DNA from: Methanosarcina vacuolata Z-761 | GTDB taxonomy: Archaea; Halobacteriota; Methanosarcinia; Methanosarcinales; Methanosarcinaceae | Length of the DNA stretch: 64,000 nt | Direction of reading: 5' to 3' | Assembly (NCBI RefSeq): GCF_000969905.1 | Contig: NZ_CP009520.1 | Coordinates: 3,534,001-3,598,000, forward strand | Shown: in pieces, positions 3,893-47,997 of the stretch | Layout of the letters: the number at the start of each line of letters is the position of its first letter | How positions within the stretch are numbered: the first letter of the stretch is position 1 | Translations under genes and position numbers: made by a program | The notes under the pieces: generated by a model | Databases searched by the model: none | What the model was told of the DNA's origin: nothing | What the model saw: the letters and a program-made list of their open reading frames with translations, nothing else

Positions 3893-3934
3893 TGACCTAT
3901 ATTGTTTATCAGGCATGAACCCATTTATGTTAGC

Positions 3935-5071
3935 ATGAGTAACCAGAAGATCCTAAAGGACTATTTAAGAAAGTGCAAAGCCGATGGACTTAAAGAAGCA
4001 ACTATCAAAACGGCTGAAGTTACCCTTACACCATTTATTGATTGGTGTGATGACAAGGATCTACAAGCGTTTACACCCGATGATATATACGACTACCTGG
4101 ACTTTATAGACAATTACAAACGGACAACCAAAGCTGGTAAAGTCATAAAGTATTCCCCAAATACAAAACAGCGGATCAGGATCGTACTCAAGAAGTTTTT
4201 AAGTTACGTAAATCCTGATCTCGGAGCGGTCATTAAACTGCGAAAATTAAAGGATGGGAAAATCCCAGAGGACATACTAACACAAGACGAAATAGAGAAA
4301 CTTATCGAGGCTAGTAGAAGCACTAGGGATAGAGCCATTGTCGCTACTTTTTACGAAAGCGGGGCACGAAGAGGAGAATTATTGGAGGTACGATTAAAGC
4401 ACGTAACATTCGATGAGAAGGGTGCTGTACTGAATATTCAAAAAGGGAAAACAGGCAGTCGCCGCATTAGACTCGTTTTGGCTTCTCCTTATTTAAGGCA
4501 GTGGATAGAAACCCATCCTTTGAAAAATGACCCCGATGCTTACCTCTTTTGCTCTAACAAGTCACCATACAATGTTATTACTTATGTGGGATTGGCTAAA
4601 CAACTTCATGAAATCGCGAAAAGGGCAGGAATACAAAAACAAAGAGTGCATCCACATGCCTTCAGGCACGCAAGAGCAACCCATCTCGCAGAACTCTTGC
4701 CAGAACAACTTTTAAAAGAGTATTTGGGCTGGACTAAATCCTCTACAATGGCTAGTGTATACGTCCACCTCTCAGGCCGTGACATGGATAATGCAATACT
4801 GAAGCTTCATGGTATTGAGACCGACGACGCACCAAAAAAGCTAACAGTAAGTAAATGCCCCAGGTGCCGGGAAATCAACCCTGAAAATGCAGTATTTTGT
4901 CTAAGGTGCGGTTTACCACTCACACAGGAGGCGGCAATGACTGTCGAAACAACGAAAACAGAATACATGCAGGTTGCAGAGCTAGACGAAATACAGGAAA
5001 TGAAAAATGAGTTACAACAACAGCGTGAAGAGATCTCTAAACTAAAGGAAACGATAAAACACGGGAAATAA
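3935..5071 (+). CDS. Tyrosine recombinase / integrase with C-terminal zinc ribbon
   Basis: The product is a site-specific recombinase of the phage-integrase family, about 378 residues from the ATG at 3935 (an ATG at 3902 is also in frame). It has an N-terminal SAM-like core-binding domain. The catalytic domain shows the first Arg in YESGARRGELLE, the HxxR box in HPHAFRHARATH and the nucleophile Tyr in MASVYVHLSG. A zinc ribbon CPRC...CLRC and a short coiled coil follow. It marks the left side of an accessory block. No tRNA gene or matching attachment repeat was found beside it. Confidence 0.93.
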   Translation: MSNQKILKDYLRKCKADGLKEATIKTAEVTLTPFIDWCDDKDLQAFTPDDIYDYLDFIDNYKRTTKAGKVIKYSPNTKQRIRIVLKKFLSYVNPDLGAVIKLRKLKDGKIPEDILTQDEIEKLIEASRSTRDRAIVATFYESGARRGELLEVRLKHVTFDEKGAVLNIQKGKTGSRRIRLVLASPYLRQWIETHPLKNDPDAYLFCSNKSPYNVITYVGLAKQLHEIAKRAGIQKQRVHPHAFRHARATHLAELLPEQLLKEYLGWTKSSTMASVYVHLSGRDMDNAILKLHGIETDDAPKKLTVSKCPRCREINPENAVFCLRCGLPLTQEAAMTVETTKTEYMQVAELDEIQEMKNELQQQREEISKLKETIKHGK

Positions 5072-5105
5072 CTGCTTTAAAACAGATTTACAGGGCAGTT
5101 GAGGG

Positions 5106-6179
5106 TTAGTGAGTCTCTGTTTTCTCCCTCAATTTTTCGAAATACTGAATATAAAAATCGTCATATGCTTTGAGTTTAGAGAATAGGTCTATTTCCGGAT
5201 TCGCTTTATAATAAGCATGCATCTCTTTTGTTTTATTCACAAATTCTATTTCTTCAGGAGAAATAGTACCCTCATAAATGTCTTTCTCGACACAGAAATC
5301 AAACATTCTTTCAATCAGTACCGGACCTATGTAGAGTGGAAGCTTCATTTCGAACAGCTCACCTGACTTGTCCAACTGATAATAGTAAGACATAAGTTCT
5401 GAGTTTTCATCCTTTATTTTCTTTAGCCCTGCTGCAAACTCTGTCTTTATGATTTCTGTTATTGATATTTCTACTCTTTTAGAAATATTAAGCTGGGTTA
5501 TCAGCGTTTTTGATTCTTTGTCCTTTATTTTCTTTGCCTCGGTCTCAAGCACTGTCGTTAATATTTCTGCCTGGTTTGGAATATTCAGCTTTGTCATTAT
5601 TCTTTTCATCATTTCCGTGAACAGACCTACAGCGCCTCCTAGAAACATGTCTTCCAAAATCCTTTGCTCCCATTCAGGATAGTCCTTCCCCCATTTATCA
5701 AAATCATGCTTGTAAAGCTCGTAAGCTATGGTATCTACAGTTTCAGGGTAATATTTTATGCAAGTATCAAAAAATGAACTTGACAGGAAGAGTTGAATGC
5801 GAAATTTATTGGCCATAGGGGAATCTGGGTGAAGAAGAAAAAACCGTTTGAGAACGATCTTTAAAGTTTTTTCATATTTTTTCAGTTGTATTTCAGGGAA
5901 ATGAAGTCTGATGTTTTTTACATGTTCGATTTTCCCTATGTCCCAATTATTTGGTAATCCTGACTTCTTCGGTGGAACTTTCTCAATACACAAATAGGGC
6001 TCGTGTTGTAAATCTTTTAGATGTCTTTTCATGTTTCTTATATCGGTTATCCCATATTTTTTTTCTAAATGTTTTCTTATATATGGCTCTGGAACAGTAT
6101 CGTTCTGACCTATAATGAACTCGATTATTCCAGCCTTTACTTCATTTCGCTTTAGGTGATCACTTGCAGTTATCTCCAT
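5106..6179 (-). CDS. Hypothetical protein, helical, possible N-terminal winged helix
   Basis: I do not recognise this 357-residue protein. The first 70 residues (EPYIRKHLEKKYGITDIRNM and on) look like a winged-helix DNA-binding region. The rest is charged and helical, with no catalytic motif that I can see. It is convergent with the integrase, 34 bp away, which suggests it belongs to the same mobile element. No ribosome site precedes the ATG at 6179; a weak TATA-like CCATATAGC about 25 bases upstream would fit a leaderless mRNA. Confidence 0.7.
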   Translation of the reverse strand: MEITASDHLKRNEVKAGIIEFIIGQNDTVPEPYIRKHLEKKYGITDIRNMKRHLKDLQHEPYLCIEKVPPKKSGLPNNWDIGKIEHVKNIRLHFPEIQLKKYEKTLKIVLKRFFLLHPDSPMANKFRIQLFLSSSFFDTCIKYYPETVDTIAYELYKHDFDKWGKDYPEWEQRILEDMFLGGAVGLFTEMMKRIMTKLNIPNQAEILTTVLETEAKKIKDKESKTLITQLNISKRVEISITEIIKTEFAAGLKKIKDENSELMSYYYQLDKSGELFEMKLPLYIGPVLIERMFDFCVEKDIYEGTISPEEIEFVNKTKEMHAYYKANPEIDLFSKLKAYDDFYIQYFEKLREKTETH

Positions 6180-6224
6180 ACGTTCTAAAGTATGCTATAT
6201 GGTTTAATAGGTTTTGTACAGTTT

Positions 6225-6302
6225 TGAGAAATGACATAGGACCTAATTTTTGAGAAATGACATAGGACCTAATTTTTGAGAAATGACATAGGACCTAATT
6301 TT
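6225..6302. repeat. Three 26-bp direct repeats, iteron-like
   Basis: TGAGAAATGACATAGGACCT plus AATTTT is repeated at 6225, 6251 and 6277 with an exact 26-bp period and essentially no differences. The repeats lie between the divergently placed hypothetical gene and the replication operon, next to AT-rich DNA. They resemble plasmid iterons, so a replication origin is possible; this is inference from position. Confidence 0.8.
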
Positions 6303-6513
6303 CATCAAATACCACTTTTTATTATTTATAAAATAGTTACGGATTAATTATCGGTGATTAAAAGCGAAATTCAGTTTTGAAAATCGAAAAATCCAGAAAG
6401 TTAAGTATTCATTCCTAATATCGCTCCCAATTCGATGGGCAAAGAGCATGAAGTTCTCCAAGGGCAACTCCTTGAGAATAGAAGTGCAAGACAATTGCAA
6501 TTTAAGGGTTAAA

Positions 6514-6551
6514 CCGGTTCCACAAACCCGACAAGATTCTGAAGGAACCGG
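6514..6551 (+). promoter_or_regulatory. Inverted repeat in the leader of the replication operon
   Basis: CCGGTTCC (6514-6521) and GGAACCGG (6544-6551) form an 8-bp perfect stem with a 22-base loop. A smaller stem-loop using AAGG and CCTT lies at about 6455-6476. Both sit 40-140 bases before the first small gene of the replication operon, so a leader-RNA control element or a protein-binding site is possible. The rest of 6303-6590 holds no gene. Confidence 0.45.
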
Positions 6552-6590
6552 AACCGAAGCCCCAAGCTAACTAAAAGAAGAGGTATCGGT

Positions 6591-6752
6591 ATGAAAACAA
6601 TGACTTTAGAGAATAAAGACTTTGCCGCATGGGCAAAAGAAAAGTGCGCCCGTTATCCGGAAATCATAAAGTATATGCGAAATAGCTTTGACCCGTTGGA
6701 AAGGGCAATCGCGATCAGAATTATGAAAAACGCAGGAGTGGACCAGCTATGA
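6591..6752 (+). CDS. Small hypothetical protein of the integrated element
   Basis: This 53-residue protein begins MKTMTLENKDFAAWAKEKCA and ends MKNAGVDQL. GAGG lies eight bases before the ATG. Its stop overlaps the next start (ATGA at 6749-6752), so it is translationally coupled to the next gene and is likely real despite its size. It has no known domain and is mostly helical. Confidence 0.7.
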   Translation: MKTMTLENKDFAAWAKEKCARYPEIIKYMRNSFDPLERAIAIRIMKNAGVDQL

Positions 6753-7390
6753 CTCCTTCTCAGAATACTTCAAGAACGCTATCAGTAAAGAAAACTCTCT
6801 ATGCTCAGGAAATGAGTAACAAGGGAACTACAGATGGTCCACAAAGCAGAAGCCCCCCGAAAAATGGTTTGAAGTATATTCCCATGAAAACTGATCCAAT
6901 CCTGACCGCAGACTATCCATACGACTATAGGATGGAGCTGCTGGACAGATTTACTCAGGTTAGTGAACCCGATGAAAAACTCGTAAACGAGATGTTCCAA
7001 GCCTTTGAAACATTAATTGCAGTGGGAATTGGCGATGAAGTCTTCGTTAGGAGGTGCTACAAATGGCCCTACGAGCGAATACATGGGGGGAGGAGGTCAG
7101 TAATGACCACATTCTACGTAGACACGATCTCTTATGTTCGTGTAACTAAGGACCCTCATGGGAATGGTTTCAAAATCGTTCCACTGACGGCCGGCCAAGT
7201 TCGAGCTTCACGTCACTCCTCCAATTATGAGAGGGATCTGCGAGATCTCTATTGTGAAGTTACACTGAACAGGAACGCAGACGAACAGGTCGCAAATGAA
7301 CTTTTCCAAGAATTTGGGGCACTAATTGCAGTTAATTTCAAAAACGGCAGTTTCACTAGGAACGGCGGTTTCACCAGGAGGGGTACATAA
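6749..7390 (+). CDS. Hypothetical protein with an internal duplication
   Basis: The 213-residue protein has no family that I recognise. Two segments resemble each other: residues about 62-100 (LLDRFTQVSEPDEKLVNEMF and on to LIAVGIGDEVF) and about 165-203 (LRDLYCEVTLNRNADEQVAN and on to LIAVNFKNGSF). This points to an internal duplication of a roughly 40-residue helical module. It overlaps the gene before by four bases and the primase-helicase gene after by one base (TAATG), so the three form one operon. Confidence 0.65.
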   Translation: MTPSQNTSRTLSVKKTLYAQEMSNKGTTDGPQSRSPPKNGLKYIPMKTDPILTADYPYDYRMELLDRFTQVSEPDEKLVNEMFQAFETLIAVGIGDEVFVRRCYKWPYERIHGGRRSVMTTFYVDTISYVRVTKDPHGNGFKIVPLTAGQVRASRHSSNYERDLRDLYCEVTLNRNADEQVANELFQEFGALIAVNFKNGSFTRNGGFTRRGT

Positions 7391-9666
7391 TGCCCCTCCC
7401 CGCGAATATCGACTCTATTATTCCTTTGGAAATGGTAGTTTATAATCAGTGGGTTCTCTGGAAATATGAAGAGGTAGACGGCAGGATGACAAAAGTCCCA
7501 TATCAAACCAATGGGAAAAAAGCCGCTTCCACAAGGCCAGAAACTTGGACGACATTAGGTGACGTATTAAAAGTAGCTGATAACTTTGATGGTATCGGAT
7601 TCGTATTTACTGAGGACTCCGGGATAGTAGGACTGGATTTCGACCATGTAAAAAAAGGAGCCATTTGGGACCTTGAGGCTCTCTACGAGATTCGAAGCCT
7701 CAATTCATACTCCGAATTATCTCCGAGTGGCGAAGGTGCTCACGTTTATGTATTTGCGAAATCCCCAGGCAACGTAAGAAAAAAAGGCAATCGGGAAATG
7801 TACAGCTCTGGTAGGTACTTCACAGTTACGGGAGACAAAATTCCTAATACTCCAGACAGCATAAATGAAAATCAGGAAGCTGTAAATGCACTTTACAAAA
7901 AGTGGTTCACTGAAGACAACAAGGAAAATACACGGATAAAGCACCCTGAGAGCGACAACCCCGATGAAGATATTATAAGCTTCTGCAAAAAATCGAAGAA
8001 CGCGCAGAAGTTTGAAAAACTGTATGCTGGAAACGTCGAAGGATATCCGTCGCAATCTGAGGCTGATCTGGCTCTGTGCTCTATTATTGCCTTCTATACG
8101 CAGGATAAGGAACAGATCCAGAGAATATTTTCAGGATCGGGGCTATATCGGCCGGAAAAATGGGGACGTCGGCAAGACTATGTAGAAACCACGATTAAAA
8201 AAGCTCTCTCTGGCCTTACGGACGTGTATACAGGCGAAAAGAAAAAAGACCAATCTGCAAGGCAGAAAATAGAAGTTCCATTCGATGTCGTGGGCAACAG
8301 AATAATGCAGAAATTCCACATAATGACCTTGGACGATACGAAGGAAATTTTCCTTTATGAGAACGGCGTTTATAAAGCCGAAGGCGCGGAAACTAAAATA
8401 AACAAAGAAATCCGCGAGGAGTATACCAGGGTATACATAGATGAATGGAACGAAAAAATAGGAACTGATTTGCCTGAGCATCTGCCTGTGGGAAACGGTG
8501 TATATGTCAATGAAGTGATGAATTATATAAAAATATACACCGCGAAAAACAGGGTCGAAATAGACCAAGGGCAGGAGGATCTCATCAATCTGAAGAATGG
8601 AATCTTCAATTTCGAGACACTCAAACTTGAGCCGCACGATCCGGAAAAGTATATGATTCGACAAATTCCGGTCATTTATGACCCTGAAGCACAATGCCCC
8701 CAAATCTCCAAATTCCTATCGAGTGTTGTCCACGAAGAGAACGTAAAAGTCTTAATCGAGTTTGCAGGGTACGCTTTACTTCCAACCACTAGGATGCAGA
8801 AAGCACTCATGCTGTATGGAAACGGCGGGAACGGTAAGTCCATATTCCTGAGATTTCTAATCGCTTTTGTAGGCGAGGCAAACACCAGTAATGAGAGTTT
8901 GCAGCGATTGGAAACTGACAAATTCGCCGTATCAAACTTATATGGGAAGCTTTTAAATGTTTTTCCTGACCTCAGTGACCAAGCCCTAGGTCATAACGAT
9001 ACATTTAAAGCACTGGTCGGCGGCGACAGGATGAGGGCGGAAAAGAAGTACAAAGACGCCTTCGCATTCTATAATATAGCTCGCCTGGTATATTCCGCAA
9101 ACAAGATACCACCAGCCAAGGATGATACAAGGGCATACTACCGAAGATGGATTCTGGTCGAGTTTCCGAACGTGTTTGAGGGCAGCAACGAAGATAAAGA
9201 CTTAATCCGTAAACTGACCACAGAGGATGAACTCAGTGGATTTTTAAATCTCGCAATCGAGGGTGTATTTGAGGCTGTATATGTAAATGAGAAGTTCTCA
9301 TACTCTCGCTCAATCGGTGATGTTGAAAAGCTATATAAAAAGAACAGCTCTCCGGTTGAGGCTTTTGCAGAGCAGTGCTTAATACCTTCGGATTCAAACA
9401 CAGAGAAAACGACTATGTACGATGCATTCATGACGTGGGCTAAGAACAACAATGTGAAGGCACTCAGTTACATTGGCTTTTGCAAAAAAATGAAATCGCT
9501 TGGATACACAGATGCAAGGCCGTGGGGTGATAGGCATGAGTCAAGGGGGAATGTTTGGGCGGGTATCAGCATCGACATGGGAAAGGTTGAGAAAACACAG
9601 CCTGTCTCAAAAGAGACTACGGGAGACATCTGGGACGGGATGACAGGGTTTAAACCCCCACTGTAG
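7390..9666 (+). CDS. Primase-polymerase / SF3 helicase replication protein of plasmid-virus type
   Basis: The 758-residue replication initiator-like protein has two parts. The N-terminal part resembles primase-polymerase domains: an acidic VGLDFDH motif at residues 80-86, then SPSGEGAHVYVF at 111-122 and SSGRYFTVTG near 140. The C-terminal part is a D5/P4-type superfamily 3 helicase with Walker A GNGGNGKS near residue 480, LLNVFPDL as the Walker B region, and sensor Asn in LVYSANKIPP. Such fusions copy plasmid or viral DNA. Together with the integrase and the iteron-like repeats it defines an integrated replicon. Confidence 0.88.
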   Translation: MPLPANIDSIIPLEMVVYNQWVLWKYEEVDGRMTKVPYQTNGKKAASTRPETWTTLGDVLKVADNFDGIGFVFTEDSGIVGLDFDHVKKGAIWDLEALYEIRSLNSYSELSPSGEGAHVYVFAKSPGNVRKKGNREMYSSGRYFTVTGDKIPNTPDSINENQEAVNALYKKWFTEDNKENTRIKHPESDNPDEDIISFCKKSKNAQKFEKLYAGNVEGYPSQSEADLALCSIIAFYTQDKEQIQRIFSGSGLYRPEKWGRRQDYVETTIKKALSGLTDVYTGEKKKDQSARQKIEVPFDVVGNRIMQKFHIMTLDDTKEIFLYENGVYKAEGAETKINKEIREEYTRVYIDEWNEKIGTDLPEHLPVGNGVYVNEVMNYIKIYTAKNRVEIDQGQEDLINLKNGIFNFETLKLEPHDPEKYMIRQIPVIYDPEAQCPQISKFLSSVVHEENVKVLIEFAGYALLPTTRMQKALMLYGNGGNGKSIFLRFLIAFVGEANTSNESLQRLETDKFAVSNLYGKLLNVFPDLSDQALGHNDTFKALVGGDRMRAEKKYKDAFAFYNIARLVYSANKIPPAKDDTRAYYRRWILVEFPNVFEGSNEDKDLIRKLTTEDELSGFLNLAIEGVFEAVYVNEKFSYSRSIGDVEKLYKKNSSPVEAFAEQCLIPSDSNTEKTTMYDAFMTWAKNNNVKALSYIGFCKKMKSLGYTDARPWGDRHESRGNVWAGISIDMGKVEKTQPVSKETTGDIWDGMTGFKPPL

Positions 9667-9722
9667 TTATAATTTTGAAATTATTGTGTATATACCATAT
9701 AAGCATACAATACGCGTGGATA

Positions 9723-9932
9723 TTAAATTGGCCATAATAGTTTTTGGCAACCATCCTGTCTCCCGGCCTCAATGGTAAAAACGTCATCATGTGAGCTCAT
9801 AGCCTGGAACAGGATGGCTTTTTTATCCTGTACCAATTCGCTGCCAATGCACAGAACCGTTTCAAAGTTGCTCCCCTCGGATCTTGTTGACACTGTGTTT
9901 AAAACGATAGCGTCAATAAGTTCTTGAACTCT
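9723..9932 (-). pseudogene. Possible C-terminal remnant of a protein gene
   Basis: An open frame on the minus strand translates into protein-like sequence (ending in FTIEAGRQDGCQKLLWPI and a stop) but has no start codon near its beginning. An in-frame TGA lies directly upstream, and the neighbouring frame continues as HTEEFKNLL, which suggests a frameshifted, decayed gene. I do not recognise the family. The rest of 9667-10164 holds no gene that I can support, apart from a TATA-like AATATATATC near 10118. Confidence 0.3.
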
Positions 9933-10164
9933 TCAGTATGCGACGCGCTAGCCCCGACATGTCACGGGTGTTTCTGCAGGCTTCCTAGGAGATCTTTTTC
10001 TATCTATGTTAATTAAATCCTGAGACTGAATCAAATGATGTCAGAGAAGAATGTCGGAATCTAAAGACTATTTTGAGGTTCAACCCGTTGAGTTATACTT
10101 AAAATATATAATAATGTGAATATATATCATTAGGGATCTGTATATTGAATATTGGTGATAAATT

Positions 10165-10446
10165 ATGTCCTTTGATTATGATGGAACGAAATGGTTTGTC
10201 GCTGGTTTTGAGGGTGGAATAGCTGGGGAATATCATGATGTACCATGGGAATTTGAGGGATCAACGGTGCGTGCCGGATTTCTCTGGAAAGGCGACTTGT
10301 CGCCCTGTGGTCCCGATCGGATCAACTGTTCTATCATGCATTCTCATGGGGGCATAGATAGTTTTGACATTGTTTTTTTGTCTCCCGGTTGGTTCGTTGC
10401 AATGAAGGGAGGTGAGCCTTACAGGTTAGGTAAGCGTATTGTGTAA
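10165..10446 (+). CDS. Small hypothetical protein
   Basis: This 93-residue protein is unrecognised. It begins MSFDYDGTKWFVAGFEGGIA, is rich in Gly, Trp and Phe, and looks like a small beta-rich fold. A GGTGAT ribosome site precedes the ATG, and a TATA-like AATATATATC lies about 45 bases upstream, so it is probably expressed alone. It sits between the replication operon and the structured intergenic region. Confidence 0.5.
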   Translation: MSFDYDGTKWFVAGFEGGIAGEYHDVPWEFEGSTVRAGFLWKGDLSPCGPDRINCSIMHSHGGIDSFDIVFLSPGWFVAMKGGEPYRLGKRIV

Positions 10447-10509
10447 CAAACAAAACAAATAAGACTTATCCAGAAAACGCTGTACTGTCTAAATCCTATT
10501 TATTATGAT

Positions 10510-10552
10510 GGGACTTACGTACTTGATTTGGGATCTCAAGTGTATAAGTCCC
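10510..10552. other. Long imperfect inverted repeat
   Basis: A 17-base left arm (10510-10526, GGGACTTACGTACTTGA) pairs with the right arm (10536-10552, TCAAGTGTATAAGTCCC) at 14 of 17 positions, around a 9-base loop. It lies 60 bases after the stop of the 93-residue gene. It may be a terminator or the end of a mobile element. TATA-rich DNA (about 10563-10605) follows it and could be a promoter for the structured region downstream. Confidence 0.6.
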
Positions 10553-10624
10553 AAGATGATAACCTAACTATATAGATATATAATCTTTACCTTAACTATA
10601 TACCAATCTGCTTTTAACATGTTG

Positions 10625-11210
10625 CCTGCACAATCAAATCAGCCTGTAAAAACAGTATCGTTTGGGCGCGTCTAACTAGCGAAATGATGTCCATAGAAAA
10701 GCGAACCACCCTGCCGGTCCGAAAAGTCATTCGGTTCTAGCTACCCCCAGGGCTTCCGTTGTTGTTTCTCGTTCGGATTGGATGTACGACGGTCAAGATT
10801 TATATTGTGCATGTTTTCAATTTGCCAGAACTACCGGATATGTTCACGCTCGACCAAAACGAGGTGGTACTTTCCACAGGCTCTAGTAGTTTTTACATAA
10901 ACGCTTACTGACGCACTCGCATAATACTCTTATCTCAGCAGGGTCTGGTCAATATGTCCTGCTAAGCTCAACGGGCTACAAGCTATAAGATAGAACAGGG
11001 CTAGAGGCAAAAGCAGACGTAATTTCACGGTGTCAGCCTTATATTCAGGGTTGGCACCGTGAATGACTGATTGCTGCGTTGACGAGACGCAGCGATAGAA
11101 ACGACGGGTTGACGAAACCCAACAAGGTGACTAAGCACGAGTGCACGGACGCACGCGGGCGAAGTGCAGTATTGACGATGTACTGCACCCCTATATTATC
11201 TCGTGAGTAT
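10625..11210 (+). ncRNA. Candidate large structured noncoding RNA
   Basis: No protein frame is convincing here, but stable inverted repeats follow each other. They include CTGT/ACAG at 10644-10655, CCGAA/TTCGG at 10719-10734, a nested stem around CTCG/CGAG at 10832-10869, and AGCAGG/CCTGCT at 10937-10963. TTCACGGTGTCA/TGGCACCGTGAA pairs at 11024-11063. Three more hairpins at 11070-11096, 11106-11120 and 11164-11188 all carry TGACGA in the loop. AT-rich TATA-like sequence at 10563-10605 would suit a plus-strand promoter. Ends, strand and function are inferred; a DNA-level role (origin, protein-binding hairpins) is the alternative. Confidence 0.42.
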
Positions 11211-11315
11211 TTAGCGTTTAAGAATTCCTCGGACTTTTTTCCAAATGTAAACAGTTGGCCCAGACTCCCTCCTGAAATCTTGTCTGTTTTTGCCAGAGAC
11301 GAACACAACTTGGCG

Positions 11316-11330
11316 TGGGGGCTACCCCCA
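11316..11330. other. GC hairpin at the distal edge of the repeat array
   Basis: TGGGGG (11316-11321) and CCCCCA (11325-11330) form a 6-bp stem with a 3-base loop. The sequence GCTACCCCCAGGGC here (11321-11334) is an exact repeat of 10740-10753. It could end transcription of the array on the minus strand or belong to the structured region. Confidence 0.5.
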
Positions 11331-11342
11331 GGGCGTCGCCTG

Positions 11343-12205
11343 AATTCCGCCGCAACAAGCTCAGGACCCCGTGGGCGGGGCAAGGGTCACAGTCGTCATG
11401 CAGGTCTAACCCGACCGTCACAACAAGCTCAGGAACATCGAGTACGTTGCTCGCGAGTCCGGACACGTTGGGGTCTAACCCTAGTTCCGTCACAACAAGC
11501 TCAGGAACAATCTGAACGAGCGATTTCATGGTCCGTTTCTGGGGGTCTAACCCTAGTTCCGTCACAACAAGCTCAGGAACTCGTTTAGTCTGGTCTTTGC
11601 GTTCTTGTGTTCCTGAAGGTCTAACCCTAGTTCCGTCACAACAAGCTCAGGAACCCTGCAGGTCGTGGCCGGTCTTATCGCGATGGCGGCAGGGTCTAAC
11701 CCTAGTTCCGTCACAACAAGCTCAGGAACAACACCTAGAGGCACAGGGGGCATTTGTGCTTATGCCCCCCGCAGTCATGCTTTTTTCAAAAACGGGTCTA
11801 ACCCTAGTTCCGTCACAACAAGCTCAGGAACCTGTCTTACATTGTGAAATGCTATCGGATGTCTCTTTTGGGGTCTAACCCTAGTTCCGTCACAACAAGC
11901 TCAGGAACATGAACGTACATGATAGGGACGCGCTTGAGATTTTTGGGTCTAACCCTAGTTCCGTCACAACAAGCTCAGGAACATTGATCTTGGCGATCTG
12001 GCCATTCATCCTTTTTGAGTGGTCTAACCCTAGTTCCGTCACAACAAGCTCAGGAACTCAGGTGCAGGCCACTATCAACCAGTGCCCGAAGGCAGGTCTA
12101 ACCCTAGTTCCGTCACAACAAGCTCAGGAACCCCGTTTGCTTTACCATATACAATTTCAGATAATTTAGGTCTAACCCTAGTTCCGTCACAACAAGCTCA
12201 GGAAC
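11343..12205 (-). CRISPR. CRISPR-like array: eleven 37-bp repeats and one degenerate repeat, next to tnpB
   Basis: Ten identical 37-bp repeats start at 11472, 11544, 11618, 11693, 11795, 11872, 11946, 12021, 12095 and 12169. An 11th (11403-11436) has lost three bases, and a degenerate 12th (11343-11368) lies at the left edge. Read on the minus strand the repeat starts GTTCCTGAGCTTGTTGTGAC and ends CTAGGGTTAGACC, with GTTCC/GGAAC able to pair inside it. Spacers are all different and 34-40 nt, except one of 65 nt (11730-11794). The decayed end is at the left, so the leader side is at the tnpB gene, whose stop codon lies inside the first repeat. No cas1 or cas2 is present. Confidence 0.85.
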
Positions 12206-13451
12206 AGGGCAAAAATTCCCTCTTTTCGTTCATCTGAGCTATTTTAGAACTGGATTGTTTGAAAGACAGTATTTCATGCCTTTTTGGATGTAACCCGACA
12301 TCCTCTATCCCGTCTGCAAAAGCTTCCGGGATTGCCTTTTTGATTATATTGAGCGCCCCGTTCAAATCTGCGTTTATGATAGTTCCGCTGGCAGACCTGA
12401 ACTGTCCTCTGTTTATCCGTTTTCCTACGTATGACTCGTGGTGTTTCACAGGTTCGTTATCCAGGAAACTGCATTTCGAGGTATGACTTTCCTCATTGAC
12501 TATGACGTCAATTCCGACTTCTTCGGCCTTGTACTTGATCATCTGAATCAGCGTGGCAAACGGGATGTTCACGAAGTTCTGGTTATTTCGCTTCCCGTGG
12601 TTGATTTTCTGTTTCCAGTCGGGATTGTTTCCGATCACGATCGTTTTGACCTCGTTTGATCTGGCATACTCGATAACGTCCCTGCTCAACTTATGGAAGT
12701 AGTCTTTGATCTTGTTATTCCGTTTCCAGTCAAGTTTAGCAAGCTTCTTGCCGTATTTGAGACCGGACTTATCGTAAACGCTCTGGACCCTTGCCTTCTC
12801 CTTATTGTAGAACTGGTTCATGCTTTTCACAACGCCGCCCTTAACGACAATCGGGTCTGCCCCGAAGTTGTTTCCGATAGTTACGACGTTAGATACACCT
12901 AAATCAATTCCGATTACCCGCGTGGAATCCAGCTCACAGGGCGTGACTTCCTTCTCGTAAACGATCTCACAGACGTAGTTGAACCGCCTCGGGATTATTC
13001 GTACCTGGCACAGCTTTACGTCCTTCAGCCTTGTTTTAAATTCCAGGTCGATCTTTCCGGGGAATTTCAGGACACCATCTTTGATTTTGCACTGCTGATT
13101 CGTGAAGACCAAAATGTTCTCCCCGTCTTTCGGCTTGTACTTTGGTGGGTTCGGCTCACCCTGAAACTTCGAATGATCCTTTTTCCATTCCTTGATGGCC
13201 CTGAAAAAAGACTTCCAATTCTTATCGAGGAGTTTTAAGATCTGCTGAGATGTTTGTGCAGGGAGCTGTTTGTACTCATCTGTGTTTTTCAACGTTGAGC
13301 ATAACTCAGAGTACCTAATCCATTTCTGGCTACGTTTGAGTTCCTGCTGGATCCGATAATTCGCTGCGTTGTACAGGTTTTTTGAAGCGTGGCACGTAGC
13401 TGATATGGACTCTGATTTGAATTGTATCTGCTCAGTCCGTGTGACTGTCAT
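12198..13451 (-). CDS. TnpB-like RuvC nuclease (candidate compact type V effector)
   Basis: The protein belongs to the TnpB/OrfB (IS1341-type) family: 417 residues from the ATG at 13451, chosen for GGGAG at 13461-13465 and a TATA-like box at 13486-13496. RuvC I is VIGIDLGVSN (Asp183) and RuvC III is NADLNGALNI (Asp362). The usual RuvC II Glu position reads IVIGNNPDWKQ; Glu residues are instead in NEESHTSKCSFLD (320-321), a layout I associate with a rearranged TnpB subgroup. The zinc-ribbon cysteines are missing. No tnpA is nearby. The last codons and stop overlap the first array repeat, so one transcript could carry mRNA and guide RNA. Confidence 0.88.
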   Translation of the reverse strand: MTVTRTEQIQFKSESISATCHASKNLYNAANYRIQQELKRSQKWIRYSELCSTLKNTDEYKQLPAQTSQQILKLLDKNWKSFFRAIKEWKKDHSKFQGEPNPPKYKPKDGENILVFTNQQCKIKDGVLKFPGKIDLEFKTRLKDVKLCQVRIIPRRFNYVCEIVYEKEVTPCELDSTRVIGIDLGVSNVVTIGNNFGADPIVVKGGVVKSMNQFYNKEKARVQSVYDKSGLKYGKKLAKLDWKRNNKIKDYFHKLSRDVIEYARSNEVKTIVIGNNPDWKQKINHGKRNNQNFVNIPFATLIQMIKYKAEEVGIDVIVNEESHTSKCSFLDNEPVKHHESYVGKRINRGQFRSASGTIINADLNGALNIIKKAIPEAFADGIEDVGLHPKRHEILSFKQSSSKIAQMNEKREFLPCS

Positions 13452-13485
13452 ACCCGAGTTCTCCCGCAGTATAAAATCTGACCCC

Positions 13486-13496
13486 ATATATATAAT
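13486..13496 (-). promoter_or_regulatory. TATA-like box for the tnpB-array unit
   Basis: The minus strand reads TTATATATAT here, about 35 bases before the chosen ATG. An archaeal start site about 24 bases downstream would give a very short leader holding GGGAG. A second, weaker box (TTTTATAC, about 13472-13479) would give a leaderless mRNA. Confidence 0.45.
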
Positions 13497-13565
13497 TAGC
13501 AAGGAGATATATTAAATCAACTAATACTGAAAATTGACGTTGTGACGTCTCAGTTATATTGCATT

Positions 13566-16559
13566 TCATTCTTTTTTGCTGTCGTCCCAGGTCAGCGAAA
13601 ATAGTGTGTCCAGCACGGCACGGCGGAAAGATTCGTTATCACTAAACTGCTTGAAGAACTCAGTCTCGATACTCATGCGTGCAATTGCTGCACGTTGAGC
13701 AGCCTTGTCAAGTTCAATGCGAGCGTTTTGTTTGTCCGAGTTTTTTCGGGCATTCTGGTAAGCGGTGTCTGCCAGTACCGCTGCCGGAAGTTCTTCAGTT
13801 ATCAGGTGGATAATCCTATCGGAATCAGTCCAGTGGATGCCGCCAAACTGGTCGTTAAAACTCTTGATGATATTACTGAGCCGGTCTAATTCAGGTTCAG
13901 ATTTGAACCCACCACTGCTTGCAGGCACAGGCTCGATTTCGGCATCTGAATCCGGAAGCTGGATTTTTACCACAGCCTGTTTTTCAACTCTGTAACTGTC
14001 CATATCTATGGCTTCGAGAATGCCTTTCGAGAGATCTTCTTCGATAGGGGCTGGCAGTTTGGGTACCAGGAAGTTAAGGAATATTGAGAGCTTTTCCCAT
14101 TCGGCATCTGTATATGGAAGAATCGATGCAAGGAAACCATAGGTACGGTTGAAAGCTTTTGCTTTGCCTTTGAAATCAACCTGTCCGTCTTCATCAAGCT
14201 GTTCTTTATAAACGGCTACACATACGTCAAGAATGGGATCGAGTTTATCGCGGTCAGAGCCATTGAGATAAAGTTCAACTAACTGCTCTATATCCTTAGG
14301 CGCATAGACCTGGTAGTTATCAAGGTCGGCCTTCAGGTCATGGAGCTTGTTGGGGTCAGTCTCGTCACTCAGAATTGTAGTACGGTAGTAATTTGAGAAA
14401 GCAGCCTGGATTGTATCAGTGGTATTCATGAAGTCCAGAACAAAAACGTCATGCTTCTGAGGGTGTGCCCGGTTAAGCCTTGAGAGTGTCTGAACAGCCT
14501 TGATATCAGATAGTACCTTGTCCACGTACATCGTATGCAGGAGCGGCTCGTCATAGCCGGTCTGGAATTTATCGGCACAGATTAGGAACCTGTAAGGGTC
14601 TTCTTTGATCTTTTCTTCGATCTTATTTGATGGGAAATCGTTGATCAAGGCCTCGGTAACTTTTACACCACCATATTTGCGCTCTCCTGAAAAAGCGACA
14701 ATTGCCTGATACTGGCTTTTCCTCTCGATGAGATAGTCGTGGATAGCATAATAGTACTGAATTGCGCGTTCTACCCCGTCCGTAACCACCATCGCCCTTG
14801 CCTGCCCGCCAATTTTTTTAAGCGCGATCACTTGCTCCTGAAAATGATCAACCATGATCTCAGCTTTGAGCTGGATAGCGTAGTTATGACCTTCAACATA
14901 CTTGCGGAGTTTCTTCTTCGCTTGCTTGGTATCGAATTCCGGATCGTTTTCCACAGTTTTGATAAGTTTGTAGTAACTGTTAACAGGAGTATAATAACTG
15001 AGAACGTCCAGGATGAATTCTTCCTGAATCGCCTGTTTCATGCTGTAGGTATGGAAAGGCCGGTGTTTAACCTGTTCATCTTCTTGATAAGGTTCCCCGA
15101 AGAGTTCCAGGGTTTTGTTCTTAGGAGTTGCAGTAAACGCAAAGTAGCTGGCATTTGGAAGCATTTTGCGGGCCTCCATTCGTTTTTCCAGTGCATCGTT
15201 TATGGTATCTTCGGGATCAAAAAGGGCTTCGTTCATTGCTGCCGATGTGCGCCCTCCCTGGCTGGAGTGAGCTTCATCAATTATGATTGCGAATTTACGA
15301 CCACGGTGATCCGTTCCAATTTCATCGAGGATGAACGGAAATTTCTGGACCGTGGAGATGATTATCTTTTTTCCGCCTTCAATGAACTTCCTGAGGTCGC
15401 CTGAGTGGTCGGCGTGCCCTACTGTTGAGCTTACCTGAGCAAACTGCCTGATTGTATCGCGGATCTGCTTATCGAGAACACGCCGGTCAGTGATGACAAT
15501 AATAGAGTCGAAGATTTCTTTGTCATCTTTTTTGAGGCCAATAAGCTGATGTGCGAGCCACGCAATGGAATTGCTTTTGCCACTGCCAGCCGAGTGCTGG
15601 ATAAGATATCGATTGCCTGCTCCGTGTTGACCTGCATGAGCAAGAAGTTTCCTGACTACATCGAGCTGGTGATATCGAGGAAAAATCTGCACTACCTTTT
15701 CGATTTTTTTTGTTTTCGCGTTTTTATACTCCACTACCTGCGCGTAATTTTCAAGGATATTGGTAAGGCTTTTTGGCGTGAGAATGCGCTTCCACAGGTA
15801 ATCGGTCTTGATACCATTTGGATTTGGAGGGTTGCCTGCACCGTCATTGTAGCCCTGGTTGAAGGGAAGGAACCAGGAGCTTTTGCCGCTCAGTTGTGTG
15901 CAGAACTTTACCTCCTGGTCATCCACAGCAAAATGAACCATACAACGCCCGAACTGGAAAATAAGCTCTTTTGCATCACGATCTCGTTTGTACTGTTCCA
16001 CTGCGTCTTCTACTGTCTGCTTCGTGAGGCTGTTTTTGAGTTCAAAAGTGGCTATAGGCAGCCCGTTGATGAAAAGCGCAAGGTCGAGGGCAAGTTTTGT
16101 TTCATCCCGGCTGTACCTGAGCTGTCTGGTTACGCTGAAGCGGTTCAGAGCATTGTTCACTTCGGCTTTTGTGTTTCCGGGCGTGGGAGTTCCGTAGAAG
16201 AGATCTATATTGTGAGGCCCGTGCTTTATGCCTTTGCGCAGAACGTCGATTACGCCTCGCTTAGTGATTTCCCCCTGCAAGCGGAAGAGGAATTTCTGTC
16301 GTGTTGGGCTGGAGTTCCCGAGGTCAAGGGATTCTGCCAGTTCGGGCTGTGTTGATTTCAGGAAAGCAGTCAGTTGGACAAGATCCACAGAGTACTCGCG
16401 GTTATAATCCTGCCATCGCCCGAGTATCCAGCCGGTACCACCGTAAAGAGCGCATGGTTCTCTGCCTATGTCTGTCTGTGCCTGAGAAGTTGCCGGCTTT
16501 CCGGCCATCGCTTCAACAATAAGGGTTTCGAGACCTTTTTCAGTGGTATCGGTTGGCAT
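13566..16559 (-). CDS. hsdR: Type I restriction enzyme, R subunit
   Basis: The 997-residue motor-nuclease subunit of a type I restriction-modification complex cuts unmethylated foreign DNA after ATP-driven translocation. The N-terminal PD-(D/E)xK nuclease shows ATFELKNS near residue 173. The superfamily 2 motor has Walker A SAGSGKSNS near 325, the DEAH box IIIDEAHSSQ near 426, and motif VI QTLSRLNRAHPQK in the second RecA domain. The C-terminal part is helical. It is the last gene of the operon, two bases after hsdS. All key residues are present, so it is probably active. Confidence 0.95.
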   Translation of the reverse strand: MPTDTTEKGLETLIVEAMAGKPATSQAQTDIGREPCALYGGTGWILGRWQDYNREYSVDLVQLTAFLKSTQPELAESLDLGNSSPTRQKFLFRLQGEITKRGVIDVLRKGIKHGPHNIDLFYGTPTPGNTKAEVNNALNRFSVTRQLRYSRDETKLALDLALFINGLPIATFELKNSLTKQTVEDAVEQYKRDRDAKELIFQFGRCMVHFAVDDQEVKFCTQLSGKSSWFLPFNQGYNDGAGNPPNPNGIKTDYLWKRILTPKSLTNILENYAQVVEYKNAKTKKIEKVVQIFPRYHQLDVVRKLLAHAGQHGAGNRYLIQHSAGSGKSNSIAWLAHQLIGLKKDDKEIFDSIIVITDRRVLDKQIRDTIRQFAQVSSTVGHADHSGDLRKFIEGGKKIIISTVQKFPFILDEIGTDHRGRKFAIIIDEAHSSQGGRTSAAMNEALFDPEDTINDALEKRMEARKMLPNASYFAFTATPKNKTLELFGEPYQEDEQVKHRPFHTYSMKQAIQEEFILDVLSYYTPVNSYYKLIKTVENDPEFDTKQAKKKLRKYVEGHNYAIQLKAEIMVDHFQEQVIALKKIGGQARAMVVTDGVERAIQYYYAIHDYLIERKSQYQAIVAFSGERKYGGVKVTEALINDFPSNKIEEKIKEDPYRFLICADKFQTGYDEPLLHTMYVDKVLSDIKAVQTLSRLNRAHPQKHDVFVLDFMNTTDTIQAAFSNYYRTTILSDETDPNKLHDLKADLDNYQVYAPKDIEQLVELYLNGSDRDKLDPILDVCVAVYKEQLDEDGQVDFKGKAKAFNRTYGFLASILPYTDAEWEKLSIFLNFLVPKLPAPIEEDLSKGILEAIDMDSYRVEKQAVVKIQLPDSDAEIEPVPASSGGFKSEPELDRLSNIIKSFNDQFGGIHWTDSDRIIHLITEELPAAVLADTAYQNARKNSDKQNARIELDKAAQRAAIARMSIETEFFKQFSDNESFRRAVLDTLFSLTWDDSKKE

Positions 16560-16561
16560 GT

Positions 16562-17959
16562 TTATTCTTCCTCTGGCTCACTTTCAAGCTCTTCTTCAGC
16601 CGTTTCTTCGTCTCCGGCAAATTCGTCTTCGAGAACTTCTGTTTCATCGGTTTCTTCAGGTAGATTCGCCGCTGCCTCTCTCACGTCTAGTTTGCCAGTT
16701 ACAACGTCAGCTATCAGGCGGGTGCGGTATTCACGTAAAAGAGAAATTCCTTGGTTATACGCATGAATTGCATGTTCTAGTTCACTAGTTGCATTGTAAA
16801 TTTTATCAAGAATCGCTTGCTGTTCAACAATTGGAGGCCGAATAATAGGTATGCTAAGGAATTGTTCGGGATACAAGCGGAGGCGTGAAGAACGGATACC
16901 AGTTGAACGACAAACATACTCAGCTACATAAGGCTTTATTCGCAACAATAAGTCTATGAACTGAGGAAGAAATGCATCTTTTTGAATAGGCCTGTAAACT
17001 GCATAGGAAGGGCTTACGATACCAGTCTGTCGTGCAATACCAAGTGCCGCCATCCAAGCCCACATAGTGTTAATAACAAGATCGCCTTCTCTACAAAGCT
17101 TATGACCCACATAAGACTCGGCCATAAACATCGTTATGTTCTTTTCAGATCTTGGTGTAACACCTGTAATATGTGAGACGGAAAGCAATTCTTCAGAGCC
17201 CGTAGAAGAACGCTCGTCAACTTCTCGATAATACCACTTGGCTGGTTTTACTTCCCAATGCTCTGGTATCTCCCCTAACCACTCTATCCCCGAAGGCTTG
17301 AGCTTAACATTGGGATCAAGCCCACGGGTGACAGCTTGATGGATAATTGCCTGCTTCTGCTCCTCCAGCAGCTTGATTAATTTCTTTTTTGCAAGGATAT
17401 AGTGCCGAATGCGTCGGTCTATGTGATCTAGATACCGGACGATGGCGGATTGTTCGGAGAGAGGAGGAACCGGGCATGGAAGATACTTGAAATCACGCCA
17501 ATCAAGATTTTGACGAAGCCCAGAACCACGTCCATAGAAAATTTTCATCAGGTCATAAGTGTGAAGAAGGAGATGACCATACTCCGGTATTAGAAGCTTC
17601 TGTGTTTGAAAACACATATATGCAGAAGTGATTATGCCTTTCGTCTTAGCAAAACCAAACCTCAGGCTGTTTTGATCGTTTTGAAGATCAGTCGATCGGA
17701 TTATGATATCATTTGGCTCAATAATTTGATATGTCTCAAATGATTCAGGAACTAGACCATGCAACTTCTCAGGAGGTTTGATAACTATCTGTCCATAGCT
17801 GAGGGAAAGTACTGTTTTTTCTAGAAGCCCGATATTAGGCACTTTCTTTTCAGTAAAGCATGCACGTCCAGGCAGTTGTTTCCAATGCTCCGGCACATCT
17901 CCTATCCAAGGTATGCCTGAATCTTTGTATGCTGGATAGGGTTTGAGGGCGTGGATCAT
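16562..17959 (-). CDS. hsdS: Type I restriction-modification specificity subunit
   Basis: The 465-residue DNA-recognition subunit sets the two half-sites of the target. Two target-recognition domains start with the same kind of motif: GIPWIGDVPEHWKQLP (near residue 15) and GIEWLGEIPEHWEVKP (near 225). Each is followed by a conserved helical spacer (PPLSEQSAIVRYLD and RPPIVEQQAILDKI). The last 35 or so residues are unusually acidic (ending EEELESEPEEE). It overlaps the DUF262 gene by four bases (ATGA) and abuts hsdR. Tail function is unknown. Confidence 0.93.
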   Translation of the reverse strand: MIHALKPYPAYKDSGIPWIGDVPEHWKQLPGRACFTEKKVPNIGLLEKTVLSLSYGQIVIKPPEKLHGLVPESFETYQIIEPNDIIIRSTDLQNDQNSLRFGFAKTKGIITSAYMCFQTQKLLIPEYGHLLLHTYDLMKIFYGRGSGLRQNLDWRDFKYLPCPVPPLSEQSAIVRYLDHIDRRIRHYILAKKKLIKLLEEQKQAIIHQAVTRGLDPNVKLKPSGIEWLGEIPEHWEVKPAKWYYREVDERSSTGSEELLSVSHITGVTPRSEKNITMFMAESYVGHKLCREGDLVINTMWAWMAALGIARQTGIVSPSYAVYRPIQKDAFLPQFIDLLLRIKPYVAEYVCRSTGIRSSRLRLYPEQFLSIPIIRPPIVEQQAILDKIYNATSELEHAIHAYNQGISLLREYRTRLIADVVTGKLDVREAAANLPEETDETEVLEDEFAGDEETAEEELESEPEEE

Positions 17960-19791
17960 TTATCCACTTCCCGTAGAAGATCTTCTGGAGTCCAGATGCG
18001 CTTGGCGAGTTGAAGGTAAAGCGCTCCACGTTCATCAAGATCTTTTTTCTTGAACTGCACATGTGCCTTAAACGGCAAGCCGCTATCTTGCACAAAACGC
18101 AGGAAACCTGAATTATGATCATAGCACTGAGGATGCAAAGAGCGAGCGAGAAGGTTTAATTCTTGGGTGTTATAATGTGGCAGTTTTTCCTCATAAGCTA
18201 AGTCACCATAACTGGCGTTAAAACTCTTAGGTAGAAGTAACAGCCCACCTATGCGGTTGCGGTACTCGGCGAAATCAGCGTACTGGCTGAACTCATCAAT
18301 ATGCCTCTCGTGATGGTCAGCCCATATGTGTTCTATTTCATAGCGTTCCTTTCCTTCTTTAACATACTCAATGTAACGCGAGGTTTTTCCGGACTGTATT
18401 TCCACATAGTCAGTCAGGCGGGCTAAAACACGGTGCAGAGAACGACGATTCTGCTGATGAACACGTAAAGAAGTATTGCTCTCAAAAGTTTCTTTCTCTT
18501 TGCACAGGATTTCATAGAGCTTGCATGCCAGCGGTTCAGGGTCCAACCCACGTATATCACGCATGATGAGGAACATAGAATACTGCATGGTGGAATAAGC
18601 AATGCTTCGGAAGTTCCACAAGCGCCAAGTGAGCAGAATATCTAAGAAGCGACTTACAATACGTAGCTTTCTTCTCACAACTTCGTCTTTGTCACTGGGA
18701 CGAAGTGGAGCAAGTAACAGCATATATTGTAGTGTGAATCCATTCTGGGCATTATAGAGAACGCACTCCAGTCCATCAACTGACTTGTGTGATGCCTCTA
18801 AGAGACGCAGGTATTGACGGCTGTAAAAACCAAAATCTATTTCTATGAATCGATAAAAATCAGAGCTTTGCTTGAGCCCAATTGATTCTCTTGCATCATG
18901 CAGCCAGCGATGAAACTCAGTGCCTATGCGGTCGAAGTCTTCGGACTTTGCACCTTTCTTGCGTTCACGAATCTTGGTAGCGTACTGGCTACGCAGCCAG
19001 GCTTTAAAACAGTCCGATTCTACATCCTTGCCTGCTTCGTTTAGCTCGCGGATTCTTTCACGCCAACGGTCGTTGGCAGAAATACGTTTGGATGTATTAT
19101 CGATGTTAGCCAACAGGTATCCCTTGAGCATTTCCGTATTACTGAGAGACAGGCCGCGGTCATTCATTGTCTCAAAAATTGTATAAGCATCATCGTCGGA
19201 GTAAGCAGTTATCTCAACAAGATGCACGTTTTCCAGCAACCAGTCTATGAAGTACGGCAACGCATTATCACACAACTCTTCGGGGAAGCAAGCCTCAAGA
19301 TCTTGATAGCGCTGATAAAGATTCTGCACTGACTCTGTGCAGTCAGTGACGTCAAAGGGCTGTCCTTCGTATAGAGCTTCCATGCAAGCTGTCCGATCTT
19401 CAACATAAATATTGAAAGATTTTTGGCCGAATTTCTCGGAAACTATCATCTCATCTACATTAACTTGGTCTTTACGGCCATTTTGTAGATTACGCAACAG
19501 GATGAGTAGCAATGTGAGGCTAGTAAGGCGTTGCTGACCATCAACGATGTAATTGAGATTGTCCTTCTTGCTGATAATAATTGAACCAAGAAAGTAGTGT
19601 GGGTATTCAGCGACTTTGTCGCGTGGGTGATCTGGCTGATATTCTTCAAGGAACTTCCCGCTCAAGTCAGCAACCAATTCTTGTATATTCTTTTCACGCC
19701 AATTGTACTCCCGCTGGTAATAGTCGATAGAGTACTTTACTCCCTTGAGCAGACTGCGGACTGTTTTGGCATCTCCTCTTATTTCTCTCAT
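17956..19791 (-). CDS. DUF262 / DUF1524 (GmrSD-like) protein embedded in the type I operon
   Basis: The 611-residue protein carries the DUF262 signature YIVDGQQRLTSLTLLL near residue 83; this ParB-like motif is linked to nucleotide hydrolysis in the GmrS half of GmrSD. Near residue 480 it has a His-containing nuclease motif EIEHIWADHHE followed by NRIGGLLLLPKSFN, typical of the DUF1524 HNH-like nuclease. GmrSD enzymes cut modified phage DNA. It lies between hsdM and hsdS with four-base overlaps on both sides, so it is translated with the R-M genes. A supporting or backup defence role is inferred from this nesting. Confidence 0.88.
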   Translation of the reverse strand: MREIRGDAKTVRSLLKGVKYSIDYYQREYNWREKNIQELVADLSGKFLEEYQPDHPRDKVAEYPHYFLGSIIISKKDNLNYIVDGQQRLTSLTLLLILLRNLQNGRKDQVNVDEMIVSEKFGQKSFNIYVEDRTACMEALYEGQPFDVTDCTESVQNLYQRYQDLEACFPEELCDNALPYFIDWLLENVHLVEITAYSDDDAYTIFETMNDRGLSLSNTEMLKGYLLANIDNTSKRISANDRWRERIRELNEAGKDVESDCFKAWLRSQYATKIRERKKGAKSEDFDRIGTEFHRWLHDARESIGLKQSSDFYRFIEIDFGFYSRQYLRLLEASHKSVDGLECVLYNAQNGFTLQYMLLLAPLRPSDKDEVVRRKLRIVSRFLDILLTWRLWNFRSIAYSTMQYSMFLIMRDIRGLDPEPLACKLYEILCKEKETFESNTSLRVHQQNRRSLHRVLARLTDYVEIQSGKTSRYIEYVKEGKERYEIEHIWADHHERHIDEFSQYADFAEYRNRIGGLLLLPKSFNASYGDLAYEEKLPHYNTQELNLLARSLHPQCYDHNSGFLRFVQDSGLPFKAHVQFKKKDLDERGALYLQLAKRIWTPEDLLREVDK

Positions 19792-47635: not shown

Positions 47636-47997
47636 GCGAGTGAGGCACGTAAGCTCCCTTCTGTTCCTGCAAAGATTTCCTGCCACCCATCAGTGGAGAA
47701 AATGGTCCTGATGACTCTTGCAGTGACGGCATTCGGCTATGCGTTTCCAAAAACAACCGGGAGAGTCCGGAATTCTCTTTTTCCCGATTTCCAACTTGCA
47801 CCCACGAGGATTCGCCGTTTCATCCATTTACCCTGAGACCTCAGCTTCCGCATCATCGCACTTTCAGGGGATGGTTCTCGTTTCTGTGCCAGGGCCCGGG
47901 CTCTCGCCCGACATCCTTTACAGATATTCGTGTATCCGGAGCGGTGGGGAGACTTTCCTCAGACCCAAAGGCCCGTCAGCCGTCCAGCCTCTCTCGC
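47636..47997 (-). ncRNA. rnpB: RNase P RNA
   Basis: The minus strand begins GCGAGAGAGGC and ends GCCTCACTCGC, which pair as the P1 helix with one mismatch. Inside are the conserved GAGGAAAGTC after the first helices, the ACAGAAAC-type segment in the middle, and GATGAAACGGCGAATCC followed by GGTGCAAG, all typical of archaeal type A RNase P RNA. The length of about 362 nt fits. It processes the 5' ends of tRNAs with its protein partners. Antisense and sense open frames across it are accidental. Confidence 0.93.

Follow-up and report, generated by a model that had tools for sequence, protein, structure and literature searches.

A cluster of hairpins sharing a loop beside a likely TnpB-CRISPR locus in a Methanosarcina integrative element

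Small RuvC nucleases that take their guide through a repeat:anti-repeat duplex are familiar from Cas12f (type V-F), which works with a tracrRNA. Transposon-CRISPR intermediates, termed TranC, bring together a TnpB-like nuclease, an array and a split reRNA, the scaffold of which is divided into tracr and crRNA parts. In the IS200/IS605 transposons TnpB comes with an omega-RNA, and the splitting of this omega-RNA into tracrRNA and crRNA has been proposed as a step on the way from TnpB to Cas12 (PMC10097598). The V-U or TnpB-CRISPR systems ('baby' type V) have a nuclease of the size of TnpB and strongly similar to the transposon enzyme, lying by an array in the absence of adaptation genes (PMC6452270; PMC12669027), and about 50 independent associations of TnpB with CRISPR have been inferred in the literature (PMC12669027). 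It is for this last reason that the locus described here, at 11330-13451 of the window (the whole stretch of DNA that was analysed, 64 kb long, C2:3534001-3598000 of a Methanosarcina genome), joins a kind that is already known. With a TnpB-family nuclease in the range of 400-600 aa, an adjacent array and no adaptation genes in the locus, it is likely a V-U-like TnpB-CRISPR, with the look of a transposon nuclease on its way to a small CRISPR system, and likely a more valuable find than the hairpins at its side, which were the subject of an earlier note. The stretch treated there, running to 11330, stops at the degenerate first CRISPR repeat, which was not recognized as one, and the array abutting the nuclease was not named. 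The parts of the locus, and of the element that carries it, are as follows.

3902-21932: integrative element, coding for an integrase, a P4-type primase and type I restriction-modification
7390-9666: primase-helicase of the phage/plasmid P4 type, upstream of the hairpins
11330-12205, minus (putative crRNA strand): CRISPR array, abutting the nuclease gene
11330-11366: degenerate repeat, at the left end of the array
11403-11436: variant repeat of 34 nt
11472-12205: ten identical repeats of 37 nt
12198-13451, minus: TnpB/Cas12f-like RNA-guided nuclease, 417 aa, its start codon set by comparison with relatives
12227-12268, minus: anti-repeat covering the whole repeat, within the 3'-terminal part of the nuclease gene, between the omega-RNA stems and the first repeat
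12286-12303, minus: omega-RNA hairpin B, GGATGT-CGGGTT-ACATCC, covarying across TnpB relatives
12307-12332, minus: omega-RNA stem A, ATCCCG...CGGGAT, covarying across the same relatives

The nuclease, the stop codon of which falls within the right-most (first) repeat of the array, reaches 186.5 bits with the NF040570 guided_TnpB model (cut-off 100) and carries the Pfam domains OrfB_IS605 and Cas12f1-like_TNB. The aspartates of RuvC-I and RuvC-III are retained, where RuvC-II usually has its glutamate the sequence is IGNN, a feature shared with most of the clade, and an EESHTSK motif is conserved. Its best PADLOC match is Cas12f (5e-22); it differs from Cas12f in matching guided_TnpB while remaining below the NCBIfam Cas12f2 cut-off (66.4 vs 450 bits), and in having its tracr-like part within the nuclease gene. 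It is present in a single copy, and its nearest relatives are multi-copy TnpBs of other Methanosarcina genomes, 62% identical, which have no array alongside and share one right end in their flanking sequence. With IS200/IS605 the locus shares stem A and hairpin B, and possibly the strand of the guide-adjacent pseudoknot, whereas a repeat array stands in place of the transposon right end, the gene is single and no signs of mobility were seen. In contrast to the described V-U systems, the nuclease gene here still contains omega-RNA stems together with a putative anti-repeat, and the array is followed at its far end by a further structured, non-coding stretch. The likeness to TranC was judged from the make-up of the locus, the lineage of which is archaeal.

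As far as sequence can tell, the tracrRNA-like scaffold of the nuclease appears to lie inside its own gene, at the opposite end of the array from the hairpins. When the relatives are set beside the window gene, the two stems that lie shortly before tnpB ends have pairs changed on both sides in 5 cases out of 12, a figure reached by none of 500 shuffles. In the relatives, the loop of hairpin B changes in concert with the bases immediately preceding the guide (AACCT accompanying GGGTT, AGCCT accompanying GGGCT), which agrees with the guide-adjacent pseudoknot known from the structure of TnpB (PMC10097598); in the window, the repeat read on the minus strand ends in GACC, and could pair with the loop GGTT over 4 bp, one of them a wobble. 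The anti-repeat at 12227-12268, sought within the 85-nt linker, is moderately supported. Its duplex with the repeat has an energy of -26.7 kcal/mol (P = 0.008), lenient Smith-Waterman scoring gives P = 0.002 and the hairpin formed with the repeat P = 0.003; a stricter Smith-Waterman scoring gives P = 0.09, duplex energy places it just 69th among 3150 segments of the window, and all these tests bear on short regions, with modest P-values. Because the degenerate repeats stand at the left end while the stop codon of the nuclease falls in the right-most one, because the nuclease gene appears to contain scaffold and anti-repeat, and because GACC is adjacent to the guide, there is moderate support for crRNAs made from the minus strand. 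This 3'-terminal stretch of the gene, with its omega-RNA stems and anti-repeat, would then serve the crRNAs of the array in trans, as if the omega-RNA of TnpB had been split in two parts, a tracrRNA and a crRNA.

Apart from one of 65 nt, the spacers are 35-40 nt long, and they are unique. The exception, at 11730-11794, contains on the plus strand a strong hairpin followed by TTTTTT, reminiscent of an intrinsic terminator. A search for the repeat in 186 genomes of the order gave no other array, just scattered single partial matches. Protospacers were found neither in 31 Methanosarcina genomes, phages and plasmids nor in IMG/VR, where exact matches were sought with three spacers; 15 matches to 18 bases of one spacer were discarded, as none extended. 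No Cas1 match is present in the window, and the genome has a full-length one at C2:743523 together with a match of 46 residues at C2:1881156. The array beside the full-length match has a different repeat (I-B), and the idea of an orphan array belonging to the host's type I system was therefore dropped.

We may now come to the hairpins. Some 14 other Methanosarcina genomes contain relatives of the integrative element, and its own genome holds a second element of the kind, near C2:965000. A sister element in another Methanosarcina genome, G150, has an integrase 82% identical to that of the window, a 357-aa protein 50-60% identical and a primase 38% identical over its first part, and it differs by a type I-E CRISPR system and other hsd genes. 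Among the element relatives found through the 357-aa protein, G150 alone carries the region that concerns us here; relatives of the primase sought in IMG/VR gave none. Between the primase and this region lies an ORF of 93 aa (10165-10446) that Pfam, NCBIfam, PHROGs and PADLOC assign to no family. Elsewhere in the window the archaeal RNase P RNA was recognized at 47638-47995 on the minus strand (196.7 bits). The region itself has the following features.

10640-10746, plus: conserved block 1, 73% identity over 156 bp to the minus strand of G150:C16 (E 1e-19)
10811-10873, plus: conserved block 2, 79% identity to G150
11024-11063, plus: H1, long stem-loop, folding with 17 bp, of which 3 are G-U on the plus strand
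11069-11096, plus: H2, hairpin with a GACGA loop core
11106-11120, plus: H3, hairpin GGGTT-GACGA-AACCC, seen in the sequence and in the fold
11164-11188, plus: H5, hairpin with a TTGACGA loop core
11235-11240, plus: T6 run, from its sequence the likely archaeal terminator of a plus-strand RNA

The earlier note had described the whole of 10625-11330 as a structured region. This holds for 11009-11250, where the plus strand folds at -84.9 kcal/mol (z = -4.8), no shuffle out of 200 doing equally well, and it fails for 10625-10900, where folding is that of shuffled sequence (z = +0.3 on the plus strand, +0.5 on the minus) and where no perfect stem of at least 6 bp is present; the 626 nt of the region taken together give z = -2.4. 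Only the 3' half being structured and the 5' half being shuffle-like, the region is made of two unlike halves. The three hairpins with unlike stems and the same TTGACGA/TGACGA core (11073-11093, 11106-11120 and 11164-11188) were correctly seen: two hairpins sharing a loop 6-mer occurred in none of 300 dinucleotide shuffles of 11009-11250, and three of the five copies of TTGACGA on the plus strand of the window fall in the 100 bases of these hairpins. The long stem, noted as 12 bp, is also there and longer, and it was fair to say that no protein frame occupies the region, as ORFs of 112 and 169 aa merely run mechanically through the hairpins, one of them through the CRISPR repeats as well. In IMG/VR the hairpin motif gave 66 matches to a 16-mer, which were taken as chance.

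The same domain on the minus strand gives z = -2.4, and the local stems have 7 G-U wobbles when read on the plus strand; it is this asymmetry of the fold, together with the wobbles, that makes a plus-strand RNA the favoured reading. A structured RNA, as had been suggested, is accordingly plausible for the 3' half, where the T6 run agrees with it. The selection on structure that the earlier note read from unlike stems and equal loops stays a conjecture, the sole sure homologous locus, that of G150, having no hairpins in which compensating changes might be counted. The opposite strand has been considered too: the hairpins, followed at the 3' end by an anti-repeat at 10956-11006, could make a stand-alone minus-strand tracrRNA in the manner of Cas12f. 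They adjoin the array and the nuclease, and are missing from the sister element that has neither; the anti-repeat forms on that strand a duplex of 33 bp with the repeat (-35.3 kcal/mol, P = 0.02), and a TATA-like ATAATATA is found at 11199 on the minus strand. Yet both the fold and the wobbles speak for the plus strand, the nuclease gene already has a scaffold with tested covariation, and a P of 0.02 is weak once several strand combinations have been tried, so that such a tracrRNA seems somewhat unlikely. Its plus-strand counterpart was rejected, as the region shows no significant anti-repeat there (P = 0.23-0.6). The earlier proposal of a trans-acting RNA for the neighbouring nuclease thus finds no backing on the plus strand, the scaffold apparently lying at the other end of the array, where the nuclease gene ends; with that scaffold in place a guide role for the hairpin region is unneeded, and the region is probably not the guide RNA of the nuclease. 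It was also considered as a copy of the omega-RNA, to which it has no similarity. Rather unlikely, in our opinion, is an arrangement where the omega-RNA inside the gene is the tracrRNA of the array, the first repeat and its spacer still form a one-piece guide, and the hairpin cluster is a second RNA of the system, tracrRNA or regulator.

The hairpins might also act at the DNA level or as a set of binding sites, be it a replication origin, iterons or extruded cruciforms, recognized by a protein of the element such as the primase-helicase. They are downstream of the P4-type primase, and TTGACGA can be read as three direct repeats as well; G-U outnumbers A-C in the stems, however, which speaks for RNA, and in the sister element, where the primase has diverged (38%), the hairpin domain is unmatched. 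We consider this improbable.

Both blocks of the 5' half find their match at G150:C16:25079-25402, in the same order and on the same strand, with a variable middle between them, and the mean column identity of block 1 is 88%. A TATA-like CTATATACC stands at about 10596, upstream of block 1, and a TATA-like sequence precedes the G150 copy too. In the window the blocks sit between the primase and the CRISPR array, and in G150 between hsdR and csa3/cas3 of the type I-E system, the cas genes of G150 and G153 being named from their translations. The G150 locus has neither the hairpins nor the nuclease, nor any match to the 3' half of the window's region. It could be imagined that a single large plus-strand RNA, extending over about 10620-11240, has the two blocks as conserved core and the hairpins as variable arms: in G150 a middle rich in hairpins is enclosed by the blocks, after which comes a T6 run, and the TATA-like sequences are upstream in both genomes. 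Against this, a T5 run is present at 10890, 10625-10900 folds neutrally, and the comparison of window and G150 block sequences gave no reliable compensatory pairs, all of which makes so large an RNA quite unlikely. Rfam covariance models found no family in the region or in its G150 homologue, with a single chance miRNA at E 2.2, and an exact 21-nt pattern taken from block 1 was absent from IMG/VR. A profile search of 112 genomes of the family gave one borderline third match, G153:C2:2020174-2020278, with E 0.006 in one genome, roughly what chance would give over the 112, located some 290 nt past a type I-G array, on its degenerate (trailer) side; none of the other 33 loci with noise-level matches has an array. 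Its score being at noise level, we do not accept it as a homologue of block 1, and it is notable solely by its position. With this array near the G153 match, and the I-E locus near the G150 block, block 1 is possibly a CRISPR-associated non-coding element in Methanosarcina. A direct repeat of 17 nt, GCTACCCCCAGGGCKTC, 16 of 17 positions identical, occurs at 10740-10756, where block 1 ends, and at 11321-11337, where it overlaps the beginning of the array's degenerate first repeat.

We may therefore understand the region, tentatively, as the seam of two things. The 5' half would be a conserved non-coding block of the element backbone, probably with its own promoter, and the 3' half (about 11009-11240) would give a separate plus-strand structured RNA, ended by the T6 run and placed tail to tail with the minus-strand array. 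The same GACGA pentaloop, carried by three hairpins, would most simply offer repeated docking sites to a single partner, either a protein or an RNA receptor. To this separate docking RNA we give a probability of about 0.42; its transcription and termination, the docking role and indeed any function of the hairpins are what we infer from the folds and motifs just described. The hairpin domain, found in one genome only, and the minus-strand anti-repeat candidate at 10956-11006 count against it.

The hairpin cluster may be kept as an orphan RNA candidate, the worth of which hinges on a transcript. The nuclease, being 62% identical to transposon copies and having a putative scaffold that overlaps its gene, would make the step from TnpB to Cas12 testable in a cultivable archaeal genus.
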